Assembly (NCBI GenBank): GCA_948567375.1
Contig: OX419761.1
Coordinates: forward strand, 48,398,243 to 48,462,242
Length of the DNA: 64,000 bases
Reading direction: 5' to 3'
DNA from: Lunularia cruciata
Lineage: Eukaryota; Streptophyta; Marchantiopsida; Lunulariales; Lunulariaceae
The translations under genes were made by a program, and so were the position numbers. Of the stretch, positions 4,279 through 64,000 are shown piece after piece; the stretch's first letter is position 1; every line of letters begins with the position of its first letter. The notes under the pieces were generated by a model. That model saw nothing but the letters and a program-made list of their open reading frames with translations, searched no databases and was not told the DNA's origin.

Positions 4279-4462
4279 TCGACATTGAATTAAAAAAGGA
4301 AAAACCAAAACGTAGTTGGAATTAACACTAACGAAATTTGACGTTGTTGGAGATTCACGAACAACAAAACTCGACATTGAATTAAAAAAGGAAAAACCAA
4401 AACGTAGTTGGAATTAACACTAACGAAATTTGACGTTGTTGGAGATTCACGAACAACAAAAC
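4279..4462. repeat. Perfect 92-bp tandem duplication
   Basis: Two identical 92-bp units are directly adjacent, 4279-4370 and 4371-4462, each beginning TCGACATTGAAT and ending ACAACAAAAC. No mismatch is visible, implying a recent local duplication or a collapsed/expanded assembly. The unit has no open frame of note. Confidence 0.95.
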
Positions 4463-6179
4463 TAAAAGTTCACCCCATGAATTTTGTTTTACTAGAGAAT
4501 TTCAAACATCCGGCCGCCAACCCATCCATCGGGTATAAACGACGCCACGTTCTCATTACATCTCGAGAGTTACTTCTAGTTTTTCACCCGTTTAAAGTAT
4601 AGTCCTTCTATAACATCGTTGCGCGGAATAATTGATTGCCCGAGACAGGAATTCAAATCTGGATCTGAGTTTGCGAAGAGAAACCTGATACTCTGATTTG
4701 AAAAGAAGAATGTTAACATAAACATCCAAAACTACGGAGTTAATCTTTGTTCAGAGATTCCAGAAAAACGATCCATCTGGATTTCCACACGTATGAACAT
4801 CGACCAACACAAACCTACATCAAGAAACCCATCCAAAGTCAAACACGCACAGTTGTAGTGGCCACAGGGATTTCGAAGTAACCAGCAACTCTATTTCCCA
4901 GCATTGGGATATGAAATCGTCGGGAGAGTCGTGTAAAAGTCCTTAAAGGACTCTATAATGGATATGTAAGTCAAAGAGAAGAAGGCCGACGCGTGTGAAA
5001 ACAAGAATGATGGGAAGACCCCGTCAAGCCGTAGAGGAAAAGACATTGGAGGTAAAATGGGGCTAAACCCCCATAGAATCGTAAGTCAAAGAGGAAAGTT
5101 AAAACTAAGCTTCTGAAACTGCAGTTGAAAGTCAGACTACTGTAGATATCGGTTCGTGTTGTCAGTTAAACTTTAGTTTATTACTCTAGATTCGTCGTGA
5201 CTGCAATGTCTTTATAGGGTGCTTACGAAAATCAAGCCACTGAGGAACCAACTTCTACGTGTCTTGTACCAGTTGCTTATGCCCACTTTTACAGTCTGAT
5301 TTTCCTGATATTCTCTCTGGGAAAATAGTTCATTGTCGTCTTCTTCTGGAGTTTCTGTCTGCTGAGACCGTTCTGCCATTAATGAATAAGTCCAGTTATC
5401 CTACGCGGTCGCCAATTTCTGTGAATAATTCCTGAAGGATAACCTTGTTTGAGATATTCTCGGAGCGTATACTTATATTACTCTATGGGTGTCAGGCAGG
5501 TCGTGCATAATGTCATCCGTTCGCATTGAGCGAAGATTTATAAGTGAAATTTATCTGATTTGGATACAATTCATTGACTTGAAATGACGAGCAATGCTGC
5601 CAGCTGGATATAAATAAGGAAAAGGCTCGAAAGGTCTTGACCTACGAAATGATAGTCCAATTATTCCTCACAATTTAACCAAGGATGGATAGCCAAGTGT
5701 TGAGAGGTGTCAATAATTGTTGCTCGTATACACCATGTGCATAAAGTCAGGCTGTATGTTCATCAATGTTTCTTCAGGACTTCAACAAGGAAACGGCTAC
5801 GCAAAAAGATAATGAGAAAGATGAAAAGACCATCAAGCAGTATAAGGATAAAACGTAGGCACTAAATGGGGCTAAGCCTCGTTAGAATAGAATGAGAAAT
5901 CTGTCCTACGATATCTAGGAGATCGGAACTATCATATGGATCTACATCTCAATTATAATATTGAAGTGGTATCAAGGTAAGAATGTGTAAACAACGTTAG
6001 AGCTGATTTTTTTCTTTCAGACAGTAGGGGATTTCAAATCAGCTTTTTTTCAGTAAAGAAATGTAGATTTTAGGCTGAAATTCTAGAATCTATAAACTTT
6101 ATATGGGAAACGAAACTCGTGACTCGTGAAAATCTACTGATTATGCGGATTATGGACATTGGGTAATGTTTATGAAAGC
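4463..6179. other. Intergenic sequence with dispersed repeat D1 copies
   Basis: No gene is supported. Three members of repeat D1 lie here: 4981-5083 (+), a short minus-strand piece at 5399-5413, and a more diverged copy at 5789-5890 (+). A sequence at 5966-5975 resembles the start of an initiator-tRNA-Met primer binding site (TGGTATCA), so an old LTR fragment may end just before it; I could not find a partner LTR. Confidence 0.4.
4981..5083 (+). repeat. Dispersed repeat D1, copy near 5.0 kb
   Basis: This copy shares with 7351-7452 an ordered set of blocks: a GGC-GAC-like start, then GATGGGAAGACCCC, TCAAGCC, GGTAAAATGGGGCTA and CCCCATAGAATCGTA. Part of it (GGGGCTAAACCCCC) forms a short hairpin. 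A related minus-strand fragment is at 3397-3430. The family is unrecognised; it could be a fragment of an LTR or a small non-autonomous element. Confidence 0.55.
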
Positions 6180-6212
6180 ATTAATCAATGACTTTTGTTG
6201 TCATTGATTAAT
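6180..6212. repeat. Perfect 13-bp inverted repeat with 7-nt loop
   Basis: ATTAATCAATGAC at 6180-6192 is exactly complementary to GTCATTGATTAAT at 6200-6212, with a TTTTGTT loop. It is isolated in non-coding AT-rich sequence. Possible explanations are a cruciform-forming palindrome or a remnant of a small inverted-repeat element. Confidence 0.8.
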
Positions 6213-9200
6213 CACTCTTTCCTACATGTACCATTAACATTTCTTTCTCCCGTGACAGGCACAGACCCAGTATCAATTTGTCAGCTGATTAATATCCCCA
6301 GATTGATGGCAATCGAGATTGTAAGATAACCGAGACTGAAAGCTCCCAAGACTTTTATTACCCGTAAAAATTTTAGCGTAATTTATGGGTGAACCTTGGC
6401 ACCCGGAGAAATCCGTAGGGTTCCTAATTTGAAACACCCTAGTATTGCGGTCTAGTGCTTTTAGTTTAACCAATGTTTATCCAGTAAGGAGGCATATCGG
6501 TCATGGATGTCTAAACTTAAAAGAATTCAGTGGTTGTACGTGTGGGCGTTAACAACCTTTGATCCTTCATATGTTAAGTTCGTCAAATTTCACAGAGTGA
6601 GAACACAATCATCCTCCAGAAGGACAGATGGCCACCCCCCTATTTTCACCGTTTATTTTAAAGCTGCCACCAAGCCATGAACCAGCCATGGAGATCACAC
6701 GTGGAAAAGGGGGACAAGTTCATGCGTGGAAATATGGAGGGCTTTGCAAGGATTCCAAATTTAGCATATGGCCTGATGCTTGATACGAGAAGACAGCATA
6801 TCGTATCATCAAAATTATATGCTTTTGTCTCACCCATCGAGTGAACAATGCCAGAGTTTGCGATATGCTGGTGGTATATTCATTCTTATTTTACCTTTGA
6901 CTTTTCCAATACACATTTAGATGCATACTGTATAGTGACAATCTTTGTGTGGAATTTTTTATTGATTGGATTAGTAAAGGATATTCTGGACATAGAACAT
7001 GTTTTTCGAGTACTCTTAAGGTGGATCAATCATCACTAAGAGAGTCAGAAAGAAGTCCTTGTCTATCTTTTATAAATCAATCAAGGACTAATAACTCATA
7101 AGAACCTGACAAGTCCACAATTGGAATTGAATATAAATGATATGTATACCTATAAATAATCATTTTCCCGAATTGGCGTAGAAATAATGGGCATGGTTAA
7201 CGTTAGGAGTTAAATCTATGCAAGAAAACTTATTATAATGGAAAAAATGAGTTCAATAGGTATAATTCTAAGGATAAGAAGTTTCCATGTCCAAAGTTGG
7301 TATTTCATCTCAATGAGATATGAAAGTTTAGTTTGATAATCCAAATGAAAAAGGCGACCTCGTAGAGAACACGAACGATGGGAGGACCCCATCAAGCCCG
7401 TACAAGGGAGAGATGAAAAAGGTAAAATGGACTAGACCCCAATAGAGTCATAATCCAAATGTGGCAACCCTTGAGTGTATATATGTGGCAAGTAGTTTTG
7501 TATTGATTTCGTGACTGATCTGCCATATTAGATTTTGCTGCTGCACGTACGGTATGTCAATGCTCCATCAATAAAAAGAAAAGGAGGTGTTTGTAAACGT
7601 GCTATTTGAGTGAGGTCTATACCAACATGCGTGTGCAAGTAAGTCTTTAACCGGCTAATTCATATAACTTAAACTTGAAGGTTAATTGGATATTTTATTT
7701 TCTTGGAGTGCAAGAAAGTGGAAAAAATTGGAATGCTTAGGACATAGAGATAACCACTGCCTTGAATTATATAGTGATAATATGCAATTTTAAAAGCTAA
7801 CAGAGCTAAGTTTTGTTTAGGGGTATCATAATTTTATGTAATTTTATTTATCCCTATTTCTAATTATACATATGAAAATATCTTTTGATTTAAGAAAAAA
7901 TATTCTATCCTAGGAGGCAGCTCCATTTAAAAAGAAATAGTTTCTTTCTTGTTTATTTTTTGTAGATAAACCTTTTTTCCAAAATCCTTCTCCTTTACCA
8001 AAGTGTGATGCTCAAAATTCTAAAATATACATATCAATATTGAACATAGGATTTTGGGCTAATATTCCAAGAACTAATAAGATCTTGAATATATATGGTA
8101 TATGGAATTTATTGACTTTATGATATTGTATTCATCAAACTATGTTTTCATACAAAAATATACTACATCAAGTTTTAGCATGTAATCCAAATTAGTTTAT
8201 TATACAAATATTATAATACACATAGATTCTTATATGCTCCATTTGGTATGCACTAAAGGTCAAAACATCACCTCATTGTCAAAACTTGGTATATTTATTT
8301 CCCAAGGAGATATTAGAAACATTCAAGGTCAAAAACTTAACTTCTATGATCCTTTCACTCAATAAACCATGAGTAAATTATAAACAAGGTCCAAACAAGG
8401 GTGAAATGGGGAAGCTAGACCGAGCCTCCACTCCTTCGTTGTCACCTCCTTTCTTAGATTCATAACTTCCTACTCAGATCTTCAAACGAGAATTTGTCAA
8501 GTTGATCAAAGATCAACTGATTCAATAATTGCCGGGTTTTGTAACTCAAATAGACTTGCCTCGATAACTTCTGTCTCGGTAGTGTCAAACAGAATTATAA
8601 TTTTATTAGCCGATGCAACCAATTCACATATCCACCCACTTAGAGTAATCCTTCTCTAGGTCTGTATGTTTTGTAGAGCATTAAGACCTCTAGCTTCCAG
8701 CTCTACTTTTCCTTCTCCTTGCTCTCACCATGGTTTCAAGGATCGATTCTATGGATTTTTATGGAAATTTGCAATTCCTGTAAATTTTATAACTGGTACC
8801 TATAAAGTGTAAGGGCTCGTTTATGAACGTTTCTTTAACATTTTAGGCGTACCAATTTTGGCTGAATTTTTTCGCATTGAATTTCCCAGAATACCCTTAA
8901 CCCTAAATGTGTCATGCTTTTCATGATCAACCAGATTTTAGAGGGCTAAACTTCAAATGCCCCACCATAAAACCTCGACTGACTACATAAAGAAAATTTT
9001 TATGGCACTTTACTTTACAGAACACTGGGGTTTCAGATTTATGACACTTATTTTCACTTCCACTGATTGAAGTCTATAAATCGTTTTACATGTACCCATA
9101 AAAAACATCTTTGAAAATGGAGTGAACATGGAGAAAATCCCGAAAATGCTGTTGACAAAAATAAGATACGGGATGACGGCTATTTAAGTTTACAAATTTA

Positions 9201-22170: not shown

Positions 22171-22653
22171 AATTAATTTTTGTAAATGGAGACAAGAAGG
22201 CAACCTAGTGAGAGTGTTGATAGACCTTAGGCCAACAGAGAATTTCTTGTCTTGCTCTATTGCAATAAGGTTGGGGATGAAGTTAGAGAAGGATGAGAAG
22301 GACAAAGTAGAGTTACCTAATGGTCAGACAAAGAGGATTGAGTCATCACCTAGAAAGGTAATACTTTCTATAGGAAGGTATTGAGAAGCAATCAAGTGGC
22401 AAGTGATACAATTAGCTTGTTATGATGCAATCTTAGGTATATCATGGATAGAGCACTACAACCCCACGGTAGATTGGAGAAAGAAAGTAGTGAAAACTAG
22501 TCAATGGAAGATCTTTGGGATTAAAGGAAGGTCACAAACGCAAGAGTTGCCTCTATATGTCATAAAGACCACATCTATTGGTAAGATAGATAGATGTTTC
22601 ATGGGTCTAGAGAAGTCTAGAATGCCCAACACAATGGACAAATTCTTGAGAAT
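22171..22653 (+). pseudogene. Protease of chromovirus 2
   Basis: RVLIDLRPTENFLS marks the active-site region; the usual D-S-G triplet reads D-L-R, so the enzyme would be inactive. Further on, YDAILGISWIEHYNPTVDW (from about 22424) is a well-kept family signature. A stop lies between the two segments. Confidence 0.75.
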
Positions 22654-23280
22654 TTGAAAAATGTGGTCAATGAGTTCCAAGATCTCTTTTTGGATGAATT
22701 ACTTACAAGTTTACCACCAAAAAGGAGAGTAGATCATAAAATTGAGATACATCTTGGGAAGACATCTCCTTGTAAGACCCCATATCAACTATCACCTCAA
22801 GAGTTGGAGGAGTGTAAGGCTCAAATTGATGATATGTTGCAAAAGGAGTTTATCCAACCCAACGTATCACCATATGGGGCTCTTGTATTGTTTGTGAAGA
22901 AGAAGGATGGAACAATGCATATGTGCATTCACTATCAAGGGTTGAATCAACAAACAGTGAAGAACAAATATCCATTACCTCTCATGGATGACTTGTTTAA
23001 TCAACTCAATGGTGCAAGGCACTTCACCAAACTGGATTTGCAGAGCAATTATAACCAAATATGGATTGCAAAAGAAGACATATACAAAATAACATTTCAA
23101 ACAAGTTATGGTCACTTTGAGTACTTGATGATGCCATTTGGCATCACCAATGCTCTAGCCACTTTCATGAGTTTGATGAATGACATATTTCATCCGTTCT
23201 TGGATAAATCTATTATCATTTTTCTTGATGATATCTTAGTCTATAGTAGGATGCTAATAGAGCACAAGCAACATCTGTGA
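22654..23280 (+). pseudogene. Reverse transcriptase of chromovirus 2
   Basis: This 208-codon frame is the best-preserved polymerase in the window. It holds [30 protein letters not shown], the first catalytic Asp in [12 protein letters not shown] (family: LDLxSGYHQI), [12 protein letters not shown], and the catalytic FLDDILVYS box. It begins at TTG directly after a stop in the upstream frame, so it lacks its own start and would need the polyprotein. A stop at the end cuts it from the thumb and connection domains. Confidence 0.85.
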
Positions 23281-24230
23281 GAAGTCTTCTAGATTTTATG
23301 ACAAAATCAATTGTATGAAAAAATCAATTGTATGCCAAAATCTCAAAGTGTAAGTTTAGCAAATCTGAAGTAGACTACTTAGGGTATAGAGTAAGTTTGG
23401 AGGGTATCCAAGTGTTAACAGATAAAAAAGAGGTCATACAAAAATGGAGCGCTCCAAAAGATCAAACTCAACTCAAGAGTTTATTGGGATTGACGGGGTT
23501 TTATCATCAATTTGCCAAGGACTTCTCTAAGATCGTACAACCCCTAATAGCACTATTAGGCAAGGAGAAGAAGTGGATATGGCAAACCACACAAGAATTG
23601 GCCTTTCAAGAGTTGAAAGATGCATACTACATGCAACAATCTTGAAATGGTATGACCCAAAACGTCCAATCAAGATGGCTACAAATGCATCAAGTGTAGC
23701 AATAGAAGTAGTCCTACAACAATAATGGCAAGATGGATGGCACCCAATTGCATATTACTCTCATAAGTTGCTACCCATAGAATGCAACTATCACACCACT
23801 GAACTAGAAGAGCTAGCCATTGGCCTTGCAACCAAGCATTGGAAGGACTGTTTGGGTGAGAAGGCATTTGTGGTAAAGACAGACCACAAACCGCTAGTCT
23901 ACCTCAAGACACAAAAGGATCTTTCTCATCAATAGATTTGGTGGGCAAAATGGATACAACAATTCAACATGACAATCAGATATGTGGAAGGTAAGAAGCA
24001 AATTGCACATGCATTCACCCAAATGCCAATGGTAAAAAATTTGGTGGTGGAAATCAAGTTGAACCTTAAATTTTGGCCAAGGATTCTTGTTGCTACAAAA
24101 ATTGATCCACAAATTGTAGGTGCTCAATCATCCAAAGGCATCACAAGCACCCAAGGACTCATCTTCCATGATGATAGGTTGTGGACCCTAGATGATATGG
24201 ATCTAAGAACCACCATCCTAGCAATCATAT
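23281..24230 (+). pseudogene. RT thumb and RNase H of chromovirus 2
   Basis: The thumb/connection segment (23328-23645) reads CKFSKSEVDYLGYRVS, LKSLLGLTGFYHQFAKDFS and KKWIWQTTQELAFQELK. RNase H follows with MATNASSVAIEVVLQQ (first catalytic Asp replaced by Asn), YHTTELEELAIGLATKHW and TDHKPLVYLKT. The tail IRYVEGKKQIAHAF corresponds to the family's end of RNase H. Stops occur at 23643 and within RNase H. Confidence 0.82.
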
Positions 24231-25789
24231 CCCATGATTCTGCCATTGCAAGTCATGTTGGAATGGACAAGACCTTGGATGCAGTCATTACTATTGGCCC
24301 AAGATGAGCAATGATGTGATGGAAAATGTTTTATGAGCCGGTTTGTCTCTCACTCAAGATGAACCTCTGATGGTTATTATGGTAGCGCACCATGGATTAA
24401 GAAGGCAAGGAACCCTAACTCCATCATACTCCTTCAAGGCTAACATTCCAAGACTCAAGACATTGCTCACTAGAGAACTTAATGAGAGAGATAGTTGCAA
24501 ATGAAAGGATGATGAGTACCTCATCACCCCTTGTTATATACTTGTGAAATAGTTATGCACCAAAGTTACTAATTATCATAGTAACTCAAGTCAAAAAGTA
24601 AAAAGGAATATCCTTTCATATGGGCATATTCCACTAGCATGTGATCTTATCTTGATCCAACCACTAAGTCCAAGATTTTTTCACATGGGCTATCCTTGGA
24701 CTATAGAAAGAATCCAAAACAAAAGGCTTGCGGGCCCAAGAGTTCTCAACTCTTTCCTGAAAGCCAAACACCTAGGAATAATACCAAATCAACACACTAG
24801 AATCCAAAATAGTGGTGCTCATCTTTTCCACTTCCTCTAAAGTAAGGTCCCTTCTACCTTAGCTATGACTAACTCTAGCTAATCATGACTAATGCAGAAC
24901 CATTCTTTATCTCTATATAAATAATATCTCTCAAGTACTTGTAATACCAAGCTAAATATCACAATACCACACACATGCATAAATAGGCGTTACAATTTGG
25001 AGCTGAGCTGCCTACTTTGTCAACAAAATAAGGCTTCTAATCAAGCTCCCACATGACTCCTCCAACCTCTTCCCACTCTTACACAATGTTGGGAATAAGT
25101 AAGCATGGGTCTGGTTTGTGAATTGCCCAAGACCACCTTTAGATTTGATTCCATCATAGTCTTTGTCTAAAGACTCAGCAAAATGATTCATGTACGTCCT
25201 ATCACCAAGGATATGACTACTTTGCAACTAGTTCAACTGTACTTAGATGCAATCTTTCCCCATCATGGCTTGTCTTGAGTGCTCATCATAATTAGAGGTA
25301 CTCAATTCACTAGTTTATTTTGGAGAACACTCTTTGGGTTCTTCAAAACCAAATTGGCTATGTCCACAGCTTACCATCTATAGACTAATGGACAAATAGA
25401 GAGGGAAAATCACACTAATGAGGACATGCTTTGGGGCTTTATGTTGGATGAGCAAGAGAGTTGGGACCCCTCACTCCCATTGGATGCAACAATTTGGTGA
25501 ATGCCTCTACTCAAGTCACACCGTTCTTCCTCATGTATGGAGGGCATCCTTTCACACCTTCAAGCTTGATGAAGGTCTGTCCGATGGCTTTCAAGGTGGA
25601 CGTTATCAACACTTTTGTTACTAGAATCCAATAGGAGGTAGAGCATACCAAGCACATGTTATAGATTGCCCAAAATCAGCAGAAGTAGTTGGTAGATGCA
25701 CATCGCCAACACATGGAGTTCAATGTGGGAGATCAAGTCTTGCTGTCAACCACCAACCTCAAGTAAGTTGGTCCTCATAAGCTCAAACC
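24231..25789 (+). pseudogene. Integrase of chromovirus 2, split by a solo LTR
   Basis: The zinc-binding start is at 24231-24300 (HDSAIASHVGMDKTLDAV). After 24331 an unrelated LTR intervenes to 24994. The integrase resumes near 24999 with the CX2C part and NKASNQ-like sequence, then a core at 25100-25560. The first two catalytic acids are altered (SMG for SMD; IIRGTQF for SDRGTQF), while the glutamate in NGQIERE is kept. The downstream GPF module (IGPFSILCRIGVVAYHL) is visible near 25780-25850. Confidence 0.78.
24332..24994 (-). mobile_element. Solo LTR, family 3, inserted in the chromovirus 2 integrase
   Basis: The 663-bp segment has no coding content and is homologous, inverted, to 29678-30347. 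On the minus strand it starts TGTAACGCCTATTTATGC and ends GGCTCATA. The flanking tetramers GTTT (24328-24331) and ATTT (24995-24998) differ by one base, consistent with a 4-bp target duplication. Removing the segment restores continuity between the two halves of the integrase zinc domain, which proves it is an insertion. Confidence 0.85.
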
Positions 25790-26176
25790 TTGTTTCATTG
25801 GACCTTTCTCCATCCTATGCCGCATTGGAGTTGTGGCGTATCACCTCAAGCTACCGCTACGCTACATATGAAGATCCATCCAATGTTTCATGTTTCCTTA
25901 TTACGCCAACATGCTCCCCAGCCACTCCACTTCTCTTCCATTCAAGAAAGTAGACCTTGTCCAACCCTAGTTGATGACATAAAGGAGTATGAAGTCAAAT
26001 GTATTCTCCAGAAGTGCATCTGGAGTACTCGCCATCCATGTGTGGAATACCTAGTACATTGGAAAGGTTACCCCTTGTATGAGGCAACATTGGAGCCAAT
26101 AGCCAACTTGACCCACACACCAGTGTTAGTGAAATATTTTGAGCAACAACTTCACAACGAGGACGTTGCATCTTAA
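25790..26176 (+). pseudogene. Integrase C-terminus and intact chromodomain of chromovirus 2
   Basis: An open frame of 128 codons ends shortly before the 3' LTR. At 25973-26100 it contains a complete chromodomain: KEYEVKCIL, EYLVHWKGYPLYEATLEP, followed by VLVKYFEQQL. The aromatic and acidic residues expected of a chromodomain are kept. The upstream part of this frame is out of phase with the integrase proper. Confidence 0.85.
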
Positions 26177-52927: not shown

Positions 52928-55756
52928 TTATGGCTTGTACACCGCGACCACTGGGAGAAAGACGGAACTGAGCCACAAAATTGCATGTCTTTCTTGTGCA
53001 GTTGATAAGTACTTGACTTCTGACATTCCAGTTCTATCCTCTAGCACTTCCACAGGCTCTCCACTAATATCATACTTTATGACCAATGGTTTAGAGCCAC
53101 CACGACCGAAGTCATCAAAAGTTTTAGACATTACTTGGCCAAGATGTATAAGTCTGGATATGCACTTATATGTGGAGGAAAGGTAGTGTATTGTAGTCCG
53201 ACGACCATGGAGTGCAACCCAGAAATGTTTCCCATCCTCTGTGGACCTTATGTTGTCACCATAACCTGGCATCTGAGCAAATTCTTCAAGCGTACCGGTT
53301 TGTGACCCTCTCAGCCAGTATTTTAAAATTCTGCAAGATGTTAAAGCAATTTCACATCACGAAGGTCAGAGATGATATCAGTAGTCTCAAGAGACAATTC
53401 AGCTGCTCTTGTAGTGGTCAGGAAAAGGAACCAGAAAAGATCAGATGGTATCCATTTGGACCTGTAAGGAGGGTCTCTGTTTACGAGAAAGAAGGAAACG
53501 TGTGTAGGAACAGTGAGTAGATATGCTGAGGAATCGCGTAACTTTTAAGGCACAGTTTGCATGAATTTTGCTAAAACGAGAGAAGTTGGGGGGAAACCTG
53601 TTCGCAGAGGTAGAAACTATGAGTAAAAATGAACCATCTTTCGCCAAAGCTACACCATTTGGGTACTTGAACTGTTCCAACAGAACCGTGGTAGTTCCTG
53701 TCTCAGGCTCATATTTAAGGACTCTCCCGCTCGTATCTTGCTCTTTCACCACAAGCTCATGTGCTCTGCAATGCCACCACGCGATATTAGCCCAGTGTTC
53801 TTCAGGACCATGTTTACACTCTCTCAACTCCTCGCATATCGATGGTTTGGAATTTGGAAATGTCAAACTTATCCGTCTACTGAACTGAAGCACTCCAGTG
53901 GTTATTTCTCCTATTTATTTTGGATTTACTGCACATTAGATTGCAGGTATTTCCATGTCTTTAAACGTTAGAAAACTGAGTGGAAGTGTCAGATATGTAT
54001 CCTTACTTTCGTTGATGCCGAAGGCTGCTAACAGTGAAATACACCACTCCGTCTTCACCAATTTCCAAGTCGTTAGTGAATTTATGGACTTGACCATTAG
54101 ACTGATCACACAATACTTTTGCCCGTCCCCCCTCTCTGCCAACGATGGCGAGCCCGAAGTAAGCGTCTGCAATATACAGAGAACCTGAAGCATCAAACTT
54201 CAATCCCAAGGGCCGCCCGCAGACATGCTCCAATGTGGGGTACTCATATCCCCTCAGTTTGAAGTCACAGAGCTCGGACTTCCTGCAGACAGATTTGAAG
54301 TCAATGGAATATAATATCTACAGCTGAGGAAGAACGGTTACAGGTCTACTGTAGTTCATCTGTAGTTCATTGCTTAAAGTGGAGAGTAACACCATTGATC
54401 AGACTTGATTTTGGATTTTGCCAGAGTTTCTGTATTGGGTGTAGCTAGATGATAAAGTTAGAGCAGTGGGATGAAAGTGAATGAATTTACCGATGTCCAG
54501 TCTCTAACAGGACGCGAACGCGAATTGACAGTGTTTTACGAAACGATGCTTCAGAAAAGGGAGATATCGTCAGTTCCATAAATAAGGATAAGTTGCTAGT
54601 CGAATTATGAACTGCACATGCTAAGTTCTGTTAATGATATAGGTAAGTGGTAATCGTTGACATCGCCCATTATGTCGGAATGAGAAAACGCAACACAACG
54701 TTAGCTTACGGATGATAGTAAGAACTCAGAACTCACATGATACAACTAGTTTTCGTCAAGCTACTTCAGAAGGGTATAACGTTACTCTGATTCTGTCAAG
54801 AGGCAAAGACAAATGTTTTCTCCGTTGTTTTGCCCGACGCTGAAACCAGGGTATGCAGGTTAAAGTCATGCAACAGACTTTACAGTTTCAGGGCCTGAGA
54901 TCTTGCCATTTCAGTCTTTCAAACTTTAACTTAAACGTAACGAGATTTTCAAGGGTGTATGTAGAGTTATGTCTGCTATATTAACAAGACTCAGACACTC
55001 GTATCCAAGAGTGAGAAGATGATGGAAATGACCAGTAAGGAGATACGACAGCGAAAGTCTCCCAACTTCCGTCCAACTCTTTCCAACGAATCACTCTCCC
55101 GTCAGCTACTCCCGTATAGATTCGACCCTGCGATCAGTGCACGGTCGGAGGTTCATATCTAAGACCACATTAGATTCTTCGCTCCCTGATGCACAAACCT
55201 TCCCTCTGAGCATTACGAACTCGTTTTACTTCCAAATACGTGCACTTCTTGTGATTCTTCTGATAAACATCTACATTCAGATGAATCCAACTATCACTTA
55301 ATTCGATACTTGGGCAACGGACAAAGATTGTACCTGTTCATCCCAAGCCAAACTTTCGGGACCTGGAACTTCAATATGGAAGGCCAAAGAGGTGTTGAGA
55401 AGCTTGCTGGCAGGATCAGCTGGCCAGGCATTCACATCTGGCACAGGGAGCAAGCATTGATATGCATGCCCTTTGCATCCCTCGGGATGGAAGTCCATGA
55501 CTGCCTCCAGAATCCCAAATGGATCGCACGCCGTATAAATAGCAATCAGGATTACTCCTAAAGCGAAGAGTGACGACGTATGAGCCCATAATGTTGTTGT
55601 TGCTGTTATTTCTCTGCCTTTGATGGAGCTTCTTGATACCCATGGCGATGTCCGGATGGTTCTAATCTTCGTCCATTCATCTCTCTGCGTCTCAGGAGTA
55701 TCTTCCTCCTGATCAGACAGAGGTTCAGAACTTGCATCGACCATCGCATCTCCCAT
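52928..55756 (-). CDS. Strictosidine-synthase-like (APMAP-type) membrane protein, five exons
   Basis: Strictosidine-synthase-like proteins are six-bladed beta-propellers; most plant members lack strictosidine synthase activity and are thought to act as hydrolases or in wall and lipid processes. Proposed exons: 55756-55334, 55127-55033, 54282-54007, 53765-53598 and 53330-52928, all with GT..AG introns and continuous frame (1365 nt, 454 aa). Residues 1-55 are cytosolic and charged, and about 56-77 form a membrane anchor (type II). Propeller signatures follow in order: GPESLAWDEQ, GRIYTGVADGRVIRW, CGRPLGLKFD, LYIADAYFGL, FTNDLEIGEDGVVYF, SGRVLKYEPETG, FKYPNGVALAKDGSFLL, ILKYWLRGSQTGTLEEF, PGYGDNIR, HFWVALHG and FLPVVAVYKP. 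The ATG at 55756 is the first Met. An alternative acceptor at 53879/53880 would add 38 residues in frame, but the one at 53765 restores the usual spacing. Confidence 0.9.
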
Positions 55757-57560
55757 CGATCACTGGCTTGAGTCCTTTTCCAATGTATTCACAAGGTCTG
55801 TTGACAGCCTGGTTCCGAAGTTTTTGCTTGAATAATTGCTAAAGGTTGATGAAAACCTTAGCAGGCCATTTGCTTCAGTCAAAGACCCACATGCATTTCC
55901 ACAGACAGGGCAGGTCAGTGAGTCACTTAGAGTTATGATATAACGCGATGCGTCTCTAATTTGATAGTTACTTAATGCATGCAGACGTATAGACACCGAA
56001 CTTGTAGCTGAACCAACTACAACTTTGCCCGGAATAGGTGGTCATCACACACTTTGCAATGCCACACTCACCAACTAATGTTTCGAACTAACTTCCTCGA
56101 AACCTCTATGCATTTGGTACTTGACTGATAAAGTATGTAAAAATTTACGTGATGCGCATGCGTTACGCGGAGCACCCAAACAACCAACCAACCGCTGCAG
56201 CAGTTCAAGTTGCTGTAATCTGGGCATCTACTGGTGAACATTAGCGGCAGGTACTACGGGGAGTAAAACGCTTTCCTCTAGTAGTACAGAATTTGACAAT
56301 CGATAGACAAGTTGGTGAATATCAGTACTTTGGTTCATGATGTTTACGTGAGGGTAGAGCTGATGGTGTCGAATTTGCAGCTGCGAATGGGATTCTCAGT
56401 TGCCTCCCGCACTCACCAACTGACTGACAAGTAGAAAGCATTCCTCACTGGCCTCGTCTACAACTTTTTCTTCATACTGATTTTATATTTTAGGACTCCT
56501 CCTTGAGATGCACTCAGACCATCGTGGATAGCGCAAAAGTATCGTCACCAAGCTGGTCATTTCATCCCATGCGCAGTATTCCCCGCTCTTTGGATGATTT
56601 TGATTCTCTACATTGAAATTAATGTCTCCATTTCAGTGCAATGATATCAAAGGGAAGATTGGACTAGAAAGGGATAATCCATATCCAACTTCCTAAAGTT
56701 TAAGTCGTGATGGTTTCCATATGCAATGATATCAAAGGAAAGATTGCACCAGAAAGGGATCTTTCATATCCCACTTCCTAGAGGTTGAGTCGCGATCGGT
56801 TTCATATGCGTCAATCGGTGACCGGGTGCTTAGTTCCCAAGTGCCCTGGACTAGTAGCCTCGAGCTACTTTTTCTTGCTTGGAGTATGATTCTAGGTGAT
56901 GAGTCGTTTTGTAAGCCAATATACCTGCTAGTCCGCTTGTCAATAGTTTCTCCATTTATCGTTGGATTCGATAGAGCATCTCGACTGCAGTCAATGAAGA
57001 TAATTTGTTACGATAACTTATGATCAAGCGTCTCTTTCTAATTTGATCTTATAGACAGCACCACATTACCGGTACATCATGCTCTGTCAATGAAACCGTA
57101 TTTTATCATACATTCAGGGGAGTGTGGAGACTGGAGAGGAGAGGTAGAGATGTGAGAGGAAAGACATATATTTGCTGAGTGCTCTCCAGCACAAGGCACT
57201 TGAGTGAATAGTAGATCCTGGATTCTGTTTGGTCATTTTTCAATTTCAGTTCCATTGGTATCTAGATTGAAGACTATGGAGAATTGAGTATAAAGTTATG
57301 GAGGTTTTTAAGTCTTTTTAGGGTTTAGAGTGATCATTCCACATTGAGAGTGATGGTCTAGAATTTTCATTTTTGATCTTTTGGTTTTCATGATTAAGTT
57401 CCATGTGAATTAGTTTTAAAATTTTGAAAATGTAAATTGAAAGTTATGAGAGTTTATAGTTTTTAGGGTTTGGAGAGACTATATTTTCTTATGTGAGTTG
57501 GTATGGGAAGGGTTTTGGTTTTGTAGGTATGGGGAGATACTGAGAGGAGCATCATATTTT
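55757..57560. other. Upstream region of the strictosidine-synthase-like gene
   Basis: This should contain the promoter and 5' UTR of the minus-strand gene; I could not place a clear TATA box. A minus-strand frame at 55760-55996 ends just before the start codon but has no ATG, so it is not an upstream ORF. An imperfect 85-bp tandem duplication lies at 56639-56808. No other gene is visible. Confidence 0.45.
56639..56808. repeat. Imperfect 85-bp tandem duplication
   Basis: Copies start at 56639 and 56724 with CAATGATATCAAAGG, share CAGAAAGGGAT-like and CAACTTCCTA/CCACTTCCTA blocks, and both finish near TTTC(C)ATATGC. About one base in seven differs. Confidence 0.85.
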
Positions 57561-60014
57561 ACTATCATTATTCTTGTGCTAACCATGGCTACACCTCCCC
57601 ATGTGTGCCTGCCTAGAGCGGCTTGAGATACACCATACTCGGTGTGTCATTGACGCTTTACCTCGCAAGGGATAAAGACCCATGTGGGAAGGATGCACAA
57701 GGACTATGATTGGACCACTTGAGATGCCCACGTGAGACAAATGATCACATCGATAGCAGTGACACTCGGGATTACGCATGCTTCTTTTATCCCTTCATTA
57801 ATCATTTTAGGGATGTCGATCAAGTCGTGTGAATTGTTATTCTCTCAAACGGGTTGCATTTTGGTGTTATTTGAGACTAGTTTTCCATGTCCAATTATAT
57901 TCCATAGGCTACCTTGCACATTCCATGATGAGGCTTGATAGGCTTTTTGCCTACCACTTGATCGTCTGGTGTCGGATCCCTTGGACGAGTTAGCATGGTT
58001 CCTAGTCCTCGCACTCCCTCAATGTTGTCTTTGTTATGCTAGAGGGGGACATGCGGGGCATAAAGAGGTGGTTGCTAGATTTTTCAATTCCGAGCGGGGA
58101 ATTGGGCAGCCCTTTAGGAGGAGTCTATTAGGGCTAAACGTTTTAGGAGACAAGTGTTGTCACATGATACAGTAGAGTACACTTGATTACGACGATTGTC
58201 ACGCCATTTGTAGTGCTATGTCTAGATGCTCGGACACTAGAGTTCCAGTGATAGTAGTTAGAGTTATTTCAGCAGTTTCTCATAGACTACTTTCCGATGG
58301 TCAGATTTTGTGTTTGGGGTACTGACTTCACAGTGGAGCCCACTGTCACTTTGCACCGTCGAGTGTGCCGTCAGCGGGACCGTTAGGGTTTCCGTGCTAG
58401 CTTGAGTCCATGGGGTATAGTTTCGAAGTGAGCTCCAGAGAGCTCACTTCACTGATGTTGAGCCTTCGAGTTCCTGGCTATGGTGGACAGAGGCCGGCGA
58501 GCATCACTTGGATTCTCTATGCTTGAGTGGGTGTGGCTTGACTGTAATCAGTGTCAGTTGTTGGCAGTTTATAGAGTGACAGATCAAGTACTAATCTGAG
58601 TTGAGTTGAGTTGAGAGTGGTAAGCAATCTGATTACATCAGAGAAGTGAAGTCAGGGGGAAATCGGGTGCAAGAACTTTGAGTGTTGGTGGTATCTCCAA
58701 GCTTGGTGGATCGTTGGTAGCTCAATTCAAGTTCAGTATTTCCCTAGTGTGCAGAAGCTCGTTCACGTGATGCAGATTTGGCAGTTAGACGGACGGTGTG
58801 CGGAAGCACTGGCCAAATTTTGAGCAAAGAAGGAGCAAATTTTGAGCAATGGTTGTGATTTTGAGCTCAAGAGGTGAAGGCAAGACCAATTTGGTGCGAG
58901 ATGGGCTCAAAAAGTCAAATTGAAGGTGGAGTTGGGAAGCTCTTCTCATGAATTTCTGATTTGGAAAAACCCGTGTTGTCAAGTTGGCTTGAGTGGAAAG
59001 TTAGCGGGGGATTTGGTAGGCAGCCATCTTTAGGGTTTATGTCAGATTTTACATCAGATTTGGTTGGGATTTACGTCAGATCTTGGCCAAATTTGGAGGA
59101 GTTTTTGTTGTTTGGCCAGATTTGGAGGAGTTTTGCTAGTTTAGAGGACATTCGCGGATTTTGAGAAGTTTTGCCAATTTTGGAGGAGGTTCAAAGTGGC
59201 AAGAAGAAAGGCCTCATTTGGCGTTTAGAGGCTTCGAGGCATAGGGCTGTGGGCTATGAGAGGCTACAAAGGCCTAGAAGAGCCAGCAAGTCAGCTTGCT
59301 GGCGTGAGGCTAGCTAGTTTAGAGTAGATCTTGGTCATTGGTTGGCAAAATCTGCCTTTCCTGCTAGATTGTGCGTAATAGGGTTTGACCCCAAAATCTC
59401 TTGTTCTTAGACTGGTGCCCTAGCCAATTGGTCCACCCTCACTTGTTGTCCTAGTGACTGTGCCATTGTTATCTATACACATGTAGCTTTGGCTAGGAGA
59501 GGCAGTTTGATCCCATTCTTGGTGATCCTAGTAGCTTAGGACTTAGATACAAACTTCTCTTATGCCAAATGCCAAATGCCAAATGGTGGTAGAGTCAGTC
59601 CCGTGTTGTGTTATGAGATGGAGGGTTTTTGTTTAGATTTCTTGTGATTGGATCCACTCCATTCTCTACTTCCTGTTTGTGTACCATGTTTGTGTGAGGT
59701 GCCCTGACTTTTGAGCGTTGGTGCTCTGGTGTGCTCTTGGTGGTGAGGCTGGAATGATGACCAGTCAGACTACTTTTGTTTCTCTCCGGTGAGGCAGGAA
59801 GTGATGACTTGCAGACCGTGAGAGTGCGTGTTATGATGGCAGGTTACAGGTTGTCCTTTCCCCTAGTGTAGTTATCTTGGTTAGAGTTACATTAGTGGGT
59901 GGCGCTTAGTTGGTATTGGCATGTGGTGGTATTGGCACTTGGTGGAGAACTTGTGGTTGCCACTCGCGGTTGCAGTTGGTGGTTTGGGTTTGTTGGTGTG
60001 GTTACTTTGTCACA
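57561..60014. other. Probable LTR and leader of the methyltransferase-bearing element
   Basis: No coding region is supported. The sequence lies directly upstream of gag, so it should contain the 5' LTR and primer site, but the 3' LTR is outside the window and boundaries cannot be fixed. One candidate LTR start is TGTCACGCC at 58197. A possible end is TTAGAGTTACA near 59891, followed at 59911 by TGGTATTGGC, which shares only its first six bases with the tRNA-Met site. Short repeats occur at 58808-58845 and 59083-59190 (TTGGCCAxATTTGGAGGAG), and CCAAATG occurs three times near 59567. Confidence 0.4.
59372..59440 (-). other. tRNA-like sequence, degenerate
   Basis: The minus strand reads GGACCAATTGGCTAGGGCACC, then GTCTAAGAAC and GATTTTGGGGTCAAACCC. 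The first block resembles a tRNA D-arm (A box), the last a T-arm (B box, GGTTCGANNCC), at normal spacing, with a class I variable region. The anticodon stem does not pair well, so this is not a functional tRNA. It could be a tRNA pseudogene or the head of a SINE. Confidence 0.35.
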
Positions 60015-61425
60015 ATGGAGTTCTTTGGAGATTCCAGAGGAGTTAGCCCTACAGTACGCAGTGGGTTTACTCGGAGTGGTGCTCGATATCAGCTTGTATC
60101 TCAGGTCCCAGTAAGAGAGGATATTGACTCTGAGTTGGAGTTTGACACAGGAGCTGATTCAATTGAGAGTGCACTTGGTGTGTCCACACCGTTGTTGTGG
60201 GACATGGACAAGATTTATGGGGCCTATAAAGGCCCTAGGTGTTACTCTGGTACAGTGGGTACCATTGAGTTGGATGACTTCATCCAGGAGTTTGATAGTT
60301 GGTGTGATCTGCAATAGATGCGGAACCCGACTTTGTTCATATCCTTCATGGCATGGAAGGGGTTGTTTCAGCACTTGGAGGGTCCACCAATGGACGACTA
60401 CCATGAGTTCAAGAGAGCTCATTTGGAGGAGATTGAGTTATGGAGACAATATTGGTCTCCACACTATATCTCCATCACTTCAGGCTCGGTGGCCAGGAGT
60501 AGATCAGCTGTACCTACAAGTTCTAGCTCGAGTAGTGTGGGTGGAGCTAGTGGAGGTGCACTAGCTGGAGATAGTGCTACTACGAGTGGAGGTACCGTTG
60601 CAGGAGGTGGTGTGGTACCGGGGTTTAACCCCATGGTGGAGTTCTTCCTATGTTTGAGGCAAAACTACCAGGGAGTACAAACTGACAAGCTAAGGAGCTT
60701 GCAGGATTTCCAGCGGAAGGCTCGAGAGAGCCTATGCAAGGCATACACTCGCATGAGGCGTCTGATCAGTTTCACTCAGGGAGTTATTGAGGCCCAGGCA
60801 GTCCAGTTTTGGTATGGGATACTAGACAAAGTTACGACGTAGAGTTTGTGATGCTATGTTGTTATAGGCTACTTTGCCTACTTAGGCAGTGGTCTTTAGT
60901 TTGGCTGAGCATAGTGAGCTCAACATGGTGGAGAAGAGAGTGGTGACATCTGGATTTGGTATTGAGACCTCATCCACGGCTGTGACTTCTTCTAGAGTGC
61001 AGCAGAGTGCACCACGCCCAGTTGGTTTTTGAGGATAGGATGGATAGCCTAGATCCTATGGAGCGAGTGGAGGGCCTAGTGGAGTTAGACCCTTACCCTC
61101 ATTTTCGGGTCAGCAGCAACCAGTGAGTAGTGGGGTTGCTTGTTGGACTTGTGGTGGACCTCACCATCGCAAAGAGTGTACTCAGGGCAGTGGACCTGAT
61201 ACTTTGGGTGCATTACAGCCATCATAGAGGTAGTGTGAGCATTGCCACAGATTTGGTCACACTAGTGATCGGTGTTTGGACCTACACCTAGAGTTATGGA
61301 GTGGTAGGGCTACTATGGCAGGTAGTAGAGGAGCTCCAGTTCATGGAAGATAAGGTGGTAGAGGTGGTGGTAGAGGATCCACACCTAGTAGGGGTGCAAT
61401 ACCTACCCTTACTTCTAACACAACT
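60015..61425 (+). pseudogene. gag of the methyltransferase element, with two zinc knuckles
   Basis: The first ATG of the frame (60015) opens MEFFGDSRG. The frame runs to 60842 with a single internal TAG at 60315-60317. It includes a gag-type helical region (IELDDFIQEFDSWCDLQ; LEEIELWRQYW), a Ser/Gly/Ala-rich linker, and a second helical region (ESLCKAYTRMRRLI). A one-base shift near 60840 moves coding to the next frame. There two knuckles appear: CWTCGGPHHRKEC (61141-61179) and CEHCHRFGHTSDRC (61234-61275); the second fits CX2CX4HX4C exactly. Several stops interrupt the knuckle region. Confidence 0.8.
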
Positions 61426-62440
61426 ATGGCTACTTGGATTGATCAATTGGAGCAGAGATTGGCTAGTATGGCTATTGCTCAGAGGAGATCAGATTTGGGT
61501 GTTGAGGCTTCTACCTCATATGCTAGTGATAGAGATGCTTTGGACTTCATGTGCGGAGCAGCACAAGTGGATGCATCTACAGCAATGACTAGGAGTGCAG
61601 TATGTGCTCTAGAGCCTAGAGGAGCATCCGTGGAGTTGGACCCACAGAGAGGAGAGGTTGGGAGACAGGTCAGACTTCCCCAGTCTTTCATGCTATCTGA
61701 GGCATTGCAGGCAACATCCATGGTTCCTAGACATCCCAATGTAGGTGTGGTAGGTGGTGATGGAGTACATGATGGACTACCTGCTAGTCAGCCACCTACT
61801 ACTACACAGACTGAGTCTAGTATGATGTTGGGGGCGGCTCAACTGATTATGCGGCATCCTTTGTTTTTGGCCAATGATATGTTTACATTGGGAGTTCACC
61901 TAGCCCCAATATTCCGGTTGGCTGCCATGTTGTGTGAGAGTAGGGATGGTGCAGTTCCTACTACTAGAGTAGAGGTGGTTGGTAGTGGAGCTGACTTGGT
62001 TGAGGAGCATGGGATCCGTTCAGCGACCAGTGGTTTATGGCAGGCAGTAGCGGCTAGACTGGAGGAGTTGCCAGCTAGACTGGCCTTTGAGAGAGCACGG
62101 TTCACACCTGGTGTTGTCCTATTGGATAACCAGAGGGGGATTTTTTGTTTGGTGGGACCTTTAGGGAAGGTCTATACACCACAGAGAGTCTTGTTAGACT
62201 CTGGTGCGCAGCCCCTTATGTTGGGAAAGGCTGTAGTTGTCGGTCTGGAGTTACGGAAGACCGATGTGGAGAGGTGTCTATTTCAGATCCAAACATCTCT
62301 AGGTGGTGGTTTGACACAGTACATCACACGTGGGGAGCTTGTTGTCCAGGTTCAGCCTGGTCATCCGATTGATAGCTCGGTGGTGAGCTCAAGCTATTGC
62401 GACAATAGCTGAGTCATATGATGTACTAGTTGGGGGAGTA
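61426..62440 (+). pseudogene. Aspartic protease region of the methyltransferase element
   Basis: A 328-codon frame (61426-62412), the longest in the window, begins after the knuckles. Its first two thirds have no clear domain (low-complexity, Gly/Val/Thr-rich). At 62176-62300 the retropepsin core is evident: TPQRVLLDSGAQPLMLGK, with the catalytic D-S-G triplet intact at 62197-62205. After a frame change near 62390 the typical end of the domain continues (AIATIAESYDVLVGGVVLYP). Retropepsins cleave the polyprotein during particle maturation. Confidence 0.82.
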
Positions 62441-63860
62441 GTGTTATACCCCATGGGTTTTAGCATTGACTATTGGGAGGAGACAGCCTCTTATAGACCT
62501 GGTTGGCAGTCTGGTGAGGGACGGGTATGTTGCCTACCAGTACGCTTCAGTAGTGGTAGTCTTGGCTCACTACAGTCCGAGACCATGGCAGCATCAATTT
62601 TAGCTTTCAATGGTGCAGTTACTTGGCCTAGTGACTTGTTGGAGGGGAACGCCCATGCAGAGGATACTCCAGTACCAGAGGAGATCACTCGGCTTTGGAG
62701 TACGAGTGGGATTGTTCCATCCACCTTGGATGTTCCATTGTGTAGTTCAGAGGAGGCATTGCAGCAGCATGCAGATCAATTGGTCCAGCACGCTTGGAGT
62801 GGAGCCTTCGTACCATCAAGAGATGAGTGTGAGGATGAGCCTCCAGAGGCGATTGCTTTGACACCTCTAGATACCACACTCATTGCTTGGCAGTATCCAG
62901 TAGAGGAGATATGCCTATTGGAGTTGTTTGGTGGGATCAGCACCGGACTAGTTGCGGTGTTACATGCGGGTATACGAGTACAAAGGTACTTGTATGTAGA
63001 GAGAGATGAGACTGCTAGACGAGTCTCTCTATATCATGTGGCACACTTGGCCTATCACTATCCAAAGTTATTATAGATATTAGCAGTCAAAGGTTACCAA
63101 AAGGCCCTACCATGAGACATTTCCTAACTGGGGGCGCATGACCTAGAGAGACATGGGCCTATTCACTTAGTGATTTCTGGATGGCCATGTCAAGGACATA
63201 CATGTGCTGGTAGAGGATTAGGTCTTCAAGATCCTTGTTCTGGTGTGTTTTGGGAGATGTTACGGATACTACGACATCTCCAAGTTCATCAGTCCGTTTC
63301 TCCAGCTTACCTTTTGGAGAACGTTCCTTTGATGGGTGATTCTTGCACTAGAGTGGTGGCGAGTACACATCATGTCCATTCTTGGATGGGACCTGCTGTA
63401 TTGTTAGATGCAGCTAGAGTGGGATCACAAGCTCATCGTCTCTGTCTTTGGTGGATGAACCTCTTACCAAAGAGGTTCTACAGTGCGCTTATGATGGGAT
63501 TCAACGACTTGACCACATCTTTGTTGATGATATCTTGGATGTTGGGCGTCAGTCTTAGACAATGGTAGTGGCCAATAGGTCACCTATGGCAGTGGTAAAC
63601 CTAGTTGGACAACCTAGAGCCGCATTTCCCACACTCATGAGTTTCCCAAGCTCTCATGCTTTTTGAGAAGGAGGACCTGGACTTGTTTGGGACTCACAAT
63701 TATAGCAGTTGGTGGAGCCCAACGCTGATGAGAGAGAGCGGGTGATGGGTTTTTGCACCGGTATTACCGCTGTTCCAGTAGTGTCAGAGGCATCCAGGCG
63801 TCAGGTGTTAGGTCAGGCTACGGACCTGAATTGTTTGACCTGGATTGTGAGCCTTGGCTT
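62441..63860 (+). pseudogene. C5 cytosine methyltransferase, DNMT3-like, encoded by the retrotransposon
   Basis: C5 methyltransferases transfer a methyl group from S-adenosylmethionine to cytosine in DNA. Visible motifs in order: I, LLELFGGISTGL (about 62912-62947), the AdoMet-binding loop; II, RYLYVERDETARR; IV, GWPCQGH with the catalytic Cys (PCQ at 63185-63193); VI, YLLENVP; VIII, VGSQAHRLCLWW; then, after a frameshift near 63460 and a variable region, ERERVMGF and SRRQVLGQA, matching the C-terminal motif X region. The order is canonical, so it is not a DRM (permuted). Spacing between IV, VI and VIII and the C-terminus fit DNMT3 best, although DNMT3 usually has PCN rather than PCQ. An N-terminal linker (62500-62880) joins it to protease. 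Stops at 63074 and two more before 63170 show it is inactive here. Confidence 0.88.
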
Positions 63861-63864
63861 GGTA

Positions 63865-63898
63865 AAGCGCATCCTACGCTGCTGCGTAGGATGCGCTT
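63865..63898. repeat. Perfect 15-bp hairpin directly after the methyltransferase
   Basis: AAGCGCATCCTACGC (63865-63879) is exactly complementary to GCGTAGGATGCGCTT (63884-63898), with a TGCT loop. The stem is more GC-rich than the surroundings. It follows the last methyltransferase motif and precedes the region where the next coding domain should begin. Open possibilities are an RNA structure at a domain junction (for example stimulating recoding), a protein-binding site, or chance. Confidence 0.85.
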
Positions 63899-64000
63899 GA
63901 TAGGCATCACCACTCGGACACTTGTGAGCCCTGTGCTTATCAAGACGATTCAGGCACATGCTGGGGGCGATGGACTGAGAGGACATGGTATTCTTGGGAC
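63899..64000 (+). other. Continuation of the element beyond the methyltransferase
   Basis: The last 100 bases remain open in one frame (for example TLVSPVLIKTIQAHAGGDG), possibly the start of a linker or the reverse transcriptase region, but too short to identify. The element runs off the window. Confidence 0.35.

Follow-up and report, generated by a model that had tools for sequence, protein, structure and literature searches.

The window analysed here, a stretch of 64,000 nucleotides from Lunularia cruciata contig OX419761.1, carries on its + strand, from about 60015 to 64000, the decayed coding region of a retrotransposon that encodes gag, two CCHC zinc knuckles, a retropepsin-like protease (PR), a linker and a C5 cytosine methyltransferase. 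We read it as a degraded element that its relatives identify as Ty3/gypsy type and that has a DNMT3-type enzyme in its gag-protease region; in intact relatives this enzyme is likely produced in amounts like those of Gag, and its likely substrate is the DNA of the element itself, before integration or as it takes place (a probability of roughly 0.6 for this reading). The presence of an element-borne DNMT3 in a land-plant lineage is, as a separate matter, secure. Cytosine methylation is a main way in which plants silence retrotransposons, and an element that brings along a de novo type methyltransferase and retains it in distant hosts therefore raises the question of how methylation could benefit the parasite.

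Residues 1-1206 of the Marchantia polymorpha protein P0004 (1278 residues) match window positions 60204-63882 in four tblastn blocks with 46-68% identity. The blocks lie in frames 3, 1, 2 and 1 and contain 1, 8, 3 and 3 in-frame stops, respectively (15 in total), and three frame breaks are located near 60830, 62385 and 63467. Because of these stops and breaks, the window copy is dead and incapable of any of the functions proposed below for the element. Its decayed gag (60015-60830, with an in-frame stop at 60315-60317) has a start placed by eye and is aligned from 60204, with 58-62% identity to residues 1-219 of P0003 and 1-203 of P0004 in tblastn. The identity of gag rests on this match to relatives, since Pfam Retrotrans_gag gave only E 0.18 on the window gag, under the cut-off. 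The two CCHC knuckles were read from the translation at 61141-61179 (CWTCGGPHHRKEC, within a block aligned to P0004) and 61234-61275 (CEHCHRFGHTSDRC). The protease (LLDSGAQPLMLGK, 62086-62379, start approximate) lies in frame 1 within the open reading frame (ORF) 61354-62412, is aligned to P0004 and has the motif LLDSGAQ; it has no Pfam match in the window, and its relatives P0034 and P0035 match Asp_protease_2 or gag-asp_proteas under curated cut-offs. Alignment to relatives places gag, CCHC and retropepsin in Ty3/gypsy order. A conserved linker (SYDVLVGG..LYPMGF, frame 2, 62390-62904) joins the protease to the methyltransferase, with about 60% identity to P0001 and P0004 across the tblastn block 62390-63472. 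The window ends about 130 bases past the methyltransferase, ahead of any reverse transcriptase (RT).

An earlier sequence-only reading of this DNA had listed gag, CCHC knuckles, an LLDSGA protease and methyltransferase motifs I, II, IV, VI, VIII and X on one strand; the alignments and translations place gag, the two knuckles, LLDSGAQ and motifs I, IV, VI, VIII and IX-X in order on the + strand. The limits it gave, 62441-63860, are too small, for the coding part runs from about 60015 (aligned from 60204) past 64000. Its proposal of a common frame for protease and methyltransferase fails in the window copy, in which the protease is in frame 1, motifs I-VIII in frame 2 and motifs IX-X in frame 1, and holds in the relatives P0004 and L031 (a contig described below), where both are encoded by one ORF.

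The decayed methyltransferase domain occupies 62905-63870. Pfam DNA_methylase (PF00145) matches 63170-63568 with E 1.8e-5, passing the cut-off, and the top PDB match of the ORF 63128-63568 is DNMT3A (E 1.8e-4). By itself, the ORF carrying motif I matches DNMT3A weakly (E 0.15), and that carrying motifs IX-X has no PDB or Pfam match. Motif I (LFGGISTG, 62924-62947) and motif IV (GWPCQG, 63179-63196), which retains the catalytic Cys, were assigned from PDB matches and alignment columns; motif VI (ENV, 63317-63325) and motif VIII (AHRLCLWW, 63431-63454) from alignment columns; and motifs IX-X (PNADERERVMGF ... RRQVLGQATDLN, 63709-63831, frame 1) from the ORF translation, tblastn and alignment. 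In motif VIII the second Arg is replaced by Cys; of 74 aligned relatives that have a residue at this position, 72 have Arg. The motif columns were taken from 75 of 89 proteins with at least 80% of the methyltransferase core (174 have any core), the other 14, which are untyped, being left out. The order I-IV-VI-VIII-IX/X is unrearranged, as in DNMT3. DRM methyltransferases have a rearranged order with motifs VI-X before I-V, and a DRM enzyme was ruled out, as motif I stands first in the element enzyme. DNMT3A/B top both the sequence and the fold match lists, the latter obtained with a model of the relative P0001. Judged by sequence, motif order and predicted fold, the element methyltransferase is thus DNMT3-like, and this claim of the earlier reading is upheld by PF00145, by DNMT3A as the best PDB match and by the motif order.

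It is very improbable that the enzyme was captured from a C5 methyltransferase of bacteria or phages and not from a DNMT3. Motif IV, GWPCQG, is similar in letters to that of viral-contig enzymes, and an alignment scan of viral contigs did return C5 enzymes. However, the motif VIII sequence AHRPRLWWTN resembles that of DNMT3 and differs from the PQRRRRVF form found in the viral-contig enzymes, DNMT3A/B head the match lists as said, and four viral-contig rows split from all retrotransposon rows plus DNMT3A at 100/99 in the DNMT tree, at a point where long branches meet. These four came from ORFs of five viral-contig loci chosen as C5 outgroup candidates. The tree has 76 rows, none of them from Sphagnum, and its sole host enzyme is DNMT3A, represented by a partial segment with a long branch; six rows that had large gaps or lacked motifs (four of type A and one of type B, as defined below, and one viral) were removed beforehand. 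A viral origin was also rejected on three scans of viral contigs, which gave 0 loci with P0004, 28 loci at 28-48% identity over part of the query, and 2 at 28%.

The link between methyltransferase and element is seen most completely in the contig L031 (CADCWO010000201.1, 9285 bases), the one relative found by a scan of prokaryote genome contigs. Its ORF1, gag-CCHC-PR-DNMT, runs from about 8609 across the contig ends to 3491, and its ORF2, RT-RNaseH (RH)-integrase (IN)-PHD, occupies 3492-6635. The contig ends overlap by 127 identical bases, as expected of a collapsed long terminal repeat (LTR) or a circular contig. By content L031 is a eukaryotic-type retrotransposon, yet it was binned as cyanobacterial in the GTDB set, likely through contamination.

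Relatives were collected in three protein searches. The first, with methyltransferase plus linker, gave 46 proteins at E <= 1e-3 (7993 scored); the second, an alignment search, gave 154, of which the best 120 were used; and the third, whose query was the L031 integrase C-terminus plus PHD finger and contained no DNMT, gave 214, of which again the best 120 were used. A domain census covered the 254 proteins listed across these searches and the two L031 ORFs (256). A DNMT core is present in 174 of the 256, among the matches listed, 126 having at least one further retroelement domain and 48 being DNMT-only. Since the protease profile of the census spans the linker, a protease call may mean the linker alone, and a second count without this profile leaves 87 of the 174 listed core proteins with another retroelement domain. 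Among the best 120 of 154, 38 rows are named by organism: 27 from Marchantia polymorpha (several annotations of one species), 6 from Calypogeia fissa and 5 from Sphagnum. Among the matches listed, the core is present in 23/28 Marchantia-named proteins (the 27 plus P0031), 4/5 Sphagnum and 5/6 Calypogeia proteins, and is combined with gag, RT, RH or integrase in 20/28, 1/5 and 0/6, respectively; in Calypogeia it is joined to the protease-linker region or stands alone. Joins within single proteins include gag-PR-DNMT-RT (P0007, P0011, P0035), PR-DNMT-RT-RH (P0009, P0058), gag-PR-DNMT-RT-IN (Sphagnum P0024) and linker-DNMT-IN-PHD (Marchantia P0026). The Ty3/gypsy order is found again in the relatives, as RT-RH-IN in L031 ORF2 and P0136 and as RT-RH in P0009 and P0058.

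It is extremely improbable that the methyltransferase is a host DNMT3 pseudogene, or the product of an assembly join, lying beside gag-protease by chance. The window copy is broken and its RT would lie beyond the window end, which leaves room for such an accident, but the identical joint occurs in single Marchantia and Sphagnum proteins and in L031, and the linker between protease and methyltransferase is conserved as well. The fusions refute this explanation, unless all records share one artefact, and the Marchantia and Sphagnum counts given above support the view that the methyltransferase is encoded by the element, as the sequence-only reading had held. The same reading had asked whether related gag-protease copies lose the methyltransferase: the DNMT core is present in every one of the 43 retrieved proteins in which the protease-linker signature is followed by 250 residues or more, in a set biased toward DNMT because most members were retrieved through the methyltransferase. 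Twenty protease-linker proteins with shorter tails were set aside, 7 of which have no core. In the third search (best 120 of 214), 53 proteins have a DNMT in the same protein. The gag-PR protein P0042, with no DNMT core, and the DNMT-only P0093 have the same 28346-base longest contig listed, and may be one element split by a frame break.

Pairwise identities allow the domains to be compared. Gag and protease are 27% and 44% identical between P0047 and Marchantia P0004, and the DNMT is 48% identical between L031 and P0004. L031 further shares 65-66% of its RT with Marchantia P0058 and P0009, 71% of its RH with P0009, 71% of its integrase core with Sphagnum P0024, and 63% of its integrase C-terminus and 50% of its PHD finger with Marchantia P0026. 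The DNMT is conserved about like the protease.

Two arrangements of the module exist. In type A the DNMT precedes the RT, and in type B it lies between RNaseH and integrase (for example P0162, P0173, P0197 and P0204). That these reflect two captures, and not one capture followed by a move, is a possibility we would put only a little below an even chance. Type B forms one clade in the DNMT tree (100/98) and has a different domain order. Two further elements, P0147 and P0206, encode DNMT-RT-RH-IN-PHD in one ORF; their DNMTs (PPCVGWS, FPCNGFS) sit on long branches and may have been captured separately. On the other hand, both types belong to the integrase-PHD lineage, and the type A rows P0034 and P0035 join the type B side, weakly (82/84). 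In the RT tree (42 rows, quick method) A and B are not cleanly apart; P0244, with no DNMT between RH and IN, falls within B, and P0153 lies at the base of B. The window copy belongs to a 15-row clade of the DNMT tree (100/100) whose named members are liverworts (Calypogeia, Marchantia). Its nearest row by tree path is Calypogeia P0001, and its top identity is 70%, to P0056.

How the enzyme is made in intact elements may be read from the joint between the two L031 ORFs, which are in the same frame and separated by one TAG in the context AAG TAG CAA TCA. The pattern UAG CAR YYA has been named the Type I readthrough motif in an ilarvirus paper (PMC11166343). It matches once among the 299 + strand stop trinucleotides of L031, at the ORF1/ORF2 joint, and 3 times among 3612 in the window, none at such a joint. 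The ORF1 proteins of the L031 family (P0047, P0048, P0051, P0052, P0063, P0069 and P0087) have a common end, ...ALSAT plus one residue; in a second family P0049, P0050, P0053, P0054 and P0055 share an end point and P0057 ends elsewhere. The Marchantia gag-PR-DNMT proteins P0003, P0004 and P0006, known as protein models only, stop soon after the methyltransferase (79 residues). Because of the L031 stop context and the common ORF1 ends, it is a good prediction that DNMT3 is made together with Gag, and that RT-IN-PHD would probably be produced by readthrough only.

The C-terminus of L031 ORF2 is a Cys4-His-Cys3 PHD finger. Its nearest solved relatives are CHD4, a fission yeast PHD protein (Cph2), PHF12, UHRF1, KMT2D/MLL3, KDM5 and PHF21A, several of which we take to be readers of the unmodified H3 tail. 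A PHD finger is also present in Marchantia P0026, which was found through its DNMT, and in 119 of the best 120 rows (of 214) from the third search, where the finger was part of the query. Chlorophyte records with the integrase-PHD end, among the matches listed, are from Volvox, Pleodorina, Tetrabaena, Haematococcus and 'Chrzof1', presumably Chromochloris; a DNMT-like stretch is present in 3 of 6 such records (Volvox reticuliferus P0164, Tetrabaena P0180 and Pleodorina P0243). Chromoviruses, which are Ty3 elements with an integrase chromodomain, similarly have a chromatin-reader domain at the integrase C-terminus; they differ in that the reader is a chromodomain, in contrast to the PHD finger, accompanied by a methyltransferase, found here. 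Guidance of integration by the PHD finger is a tentative suggestion, which may well prove wrong.

These elements suggest the following course of events. UAG CAA UCA would be read through at a low rate, giving mostly Gag-PR-DNMT3 and little full polyprotein. Gag would bring DNMT3 into the particle in which the complementary DNA (cDNA) forms, and the cDNA would be methylated there or in the nucleus. The PHD finger of the integrase may then direct insertion to chromatin that tolerates or copies new methylation. Of the possible uses of the enzyme, methylation of the element's own cDNA is the likeliest, at odds slightly short of even. A broader scheme, which we consider unlikely in its entirety, would describe a lineage extending from green algae to land plants with a DNMT3 writer made in bulk with Gag before a leaky stop and a PHD reader: the cDNA would be methylated in the particle and inserted into H3K4-unmethylated chromatin, so resembling silent host DNA on entry; the module would have moved between two coding sites; and the volvocine form would have decayed, with a pseudo-enzyme still kept.

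Some observations weigh against self-methylation by an enzyme made with Gag. The DNMT is less conserved than RT, RH and IN. The motif IV residue before the Cys is Glu rather than Pro in 19 of the 73 rows with a letter there, mostly of type B, and the alignment shows no motif IV catalytic Cys in Tetrabaena socialis P0180. The stop context is known at the nucleotide level from L031 alone, and other Marchantia models continue into RT, RH or IN (P0007, P0009, P0010, P0011 and P0058). The protein searches were themselves selective, two of them for the methyltransferase and one for the PHD finger. Finally, the DNMT3 of a Klebsormidium Gypsy element was inactive in yeast, a result its authors deem inconclusive (PMC5890265).

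The main alternative is that the module truly belongs to the element and has a job other than marking the element's own cDNA, such as methylating host or rival DNA, binding RNA or DNA as a Gag accessory, or damping transposition for long-term gain. We regard this as possible, though distinctly the weaker candidate. Both RNA binding (for LINE elements) and slowed transposition are discussed by de Mendoza et al. (PMC5890265). The volvocine relatives P0180 and, by eye, Volvox reticuliferus P0164 keep a DNMT-like stretch without the motif IV Cys, and this suggests a non-enzymatic role in some elements; the two stretches are possible pseudo-enzymes in colonial volvocine algae. In contrast, the catalytic Cys and the motif VI Glu are conserved near-completely in the aligned relatives, and the Cys is retained even in very diverged ones, which speaks against this alternative.

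Similar captures have been described. The Klebsormidium nitens element KnitGypsy-Dnmt3 is an LTR element of Gypsy type that has DIRS-like repeats and encodes DNMT3 in its Pol ORF (de Mendoza et al. 2018, PMC5890265). It is like the present element in being a Gypsy-type element with an unrearranged DNMT3 in its coding region. Going by the text of that paper, its DNMT is in Pol, in contrast to L031, whose DNMT lies in the gag-PR ORF before a leaky-type stop, and to type B, whose DNMT lies within RT..IN; the elements described here also differ by a PHD finger that follows the integrase and by their land-plant hosts. No Klebsormidium-named protein is among the matches listed (46/46; best 120 of 154; best 120 of 214). 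Dinoflagellates have DIRS and LINE elements with a DNA methyltransferase, and SymbioDIRS-Dnmt3 methylates CG in yeast (PMC5890265). SymbioDIRS-Dnmt3 and SymbioLINE-Dnmt likewise are retrotransposons bearing a C5 methyltransferase, but are DIRS with a tyrosine recombinase, or LINE, whereas the relatives here have an rve DDE integrase and Integrase_H2C2, and Pfam scans of them list no recombinase. Plant DNMT3 (PpDNMT3a/b; Yaari et al. 2019, PMC6453930) shares the DNMT3-type domain and the occurrence in non-flowering plants; the host enzyme has a C-terminal DUF3444, for which no Pfam match was obtained in the element proteins scanned. The main text of PMC5890265 has no occurrence of 'PHD', gymnosperm, conifer or moss; its figures and supplements, outside this coverage, could hold bryophyte elements. 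An element-borne enzyme is likewise unmentioned in the portions covered of four Marchantia/moss methylation papers (PMC5784723, PMC9516144, PMC10952607 and PMC6453930). Within a literature search that left subscription papers and supplements outside, and is thus weak evidence of absence, no report was found of such elements in land plants, nor of their PHD finger or leaky stop; those described there are from dinoflagellates and one charophyte alga.

Marchantia polymorpha is a land plant amenable to genetics, and its copies make a direct test feasible; the leaky stop and PHD finger offer concrete predictions on enzyme dose and target site. Tallies of host DNMT genes may well come out too high where element proteins carry the bare label 'DNA (cytosine-5-)-methyltransferase', as some do in Marchantia and Sphagnum; the element pieces P0003, P0020, P0022 and P0081 bear this name in UniRef (Marchantia or Sphagnum; the names of P0003 and P0020 are incomplete).

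With regard to the rest of the window, no LTR pair was found in 54000-64000, as expected with the 3' half of the element beyond the window. A self-BLAST gave no pair reaching 57.9-64 kb, so the window has no second copy. No tRNA gene or known RNA of note lies upstream of gag (ARAGORN on the window, Rfam on 57800-60300), the primer-binding site not having been searched for by tool. CpG observed/expected is 0.37 in the element and 0.30 in the remaining window, depleted in both; CpG depletion is unusable as a mark of self-methylation, because the element is no more depleted than its surroundings. The CHG ratio is 0.94 in the element (58001-64000) versus 0.50 in 1-57900. The start of a post-methyltransferase tail (..TLVSPVLIKTIQAHAGGDGLRG) lies at 63871-63998 on the + strand in the ORF 63753-63998 and resembles the P0004 tail by eye, with no tool score. 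This conserved tail is broken by a perfect 15-base inverted repeat around a 4-base loop (AAGCGCATCCTACGC / GCGTAGGATGCGCTT, 63865-63898, by eye), just 3' of the methyltransferase domain. A dirigent gene (524-1342, - strand, PF03018 E 8e-34), together with the place of the window copy in a clade of named liverworts, indirectly supports the land-plant host named in the earlier reading and suggests a bryophyte. Another Ty3 remnant occupies 22621-26176, where an RT matches PF00078 (E 8e-21) and an integrase chromodomain matches PF00385 (E 1.4e-9); the RT at 22.7 kb was ruled out as part of the methyltransferase element, since it belongs to this different, chromodomain Ty3. A piece of a strictosidine synthase-like gene is located at 53441-53914 on the - strand (PF03088 E 6.6e-12).
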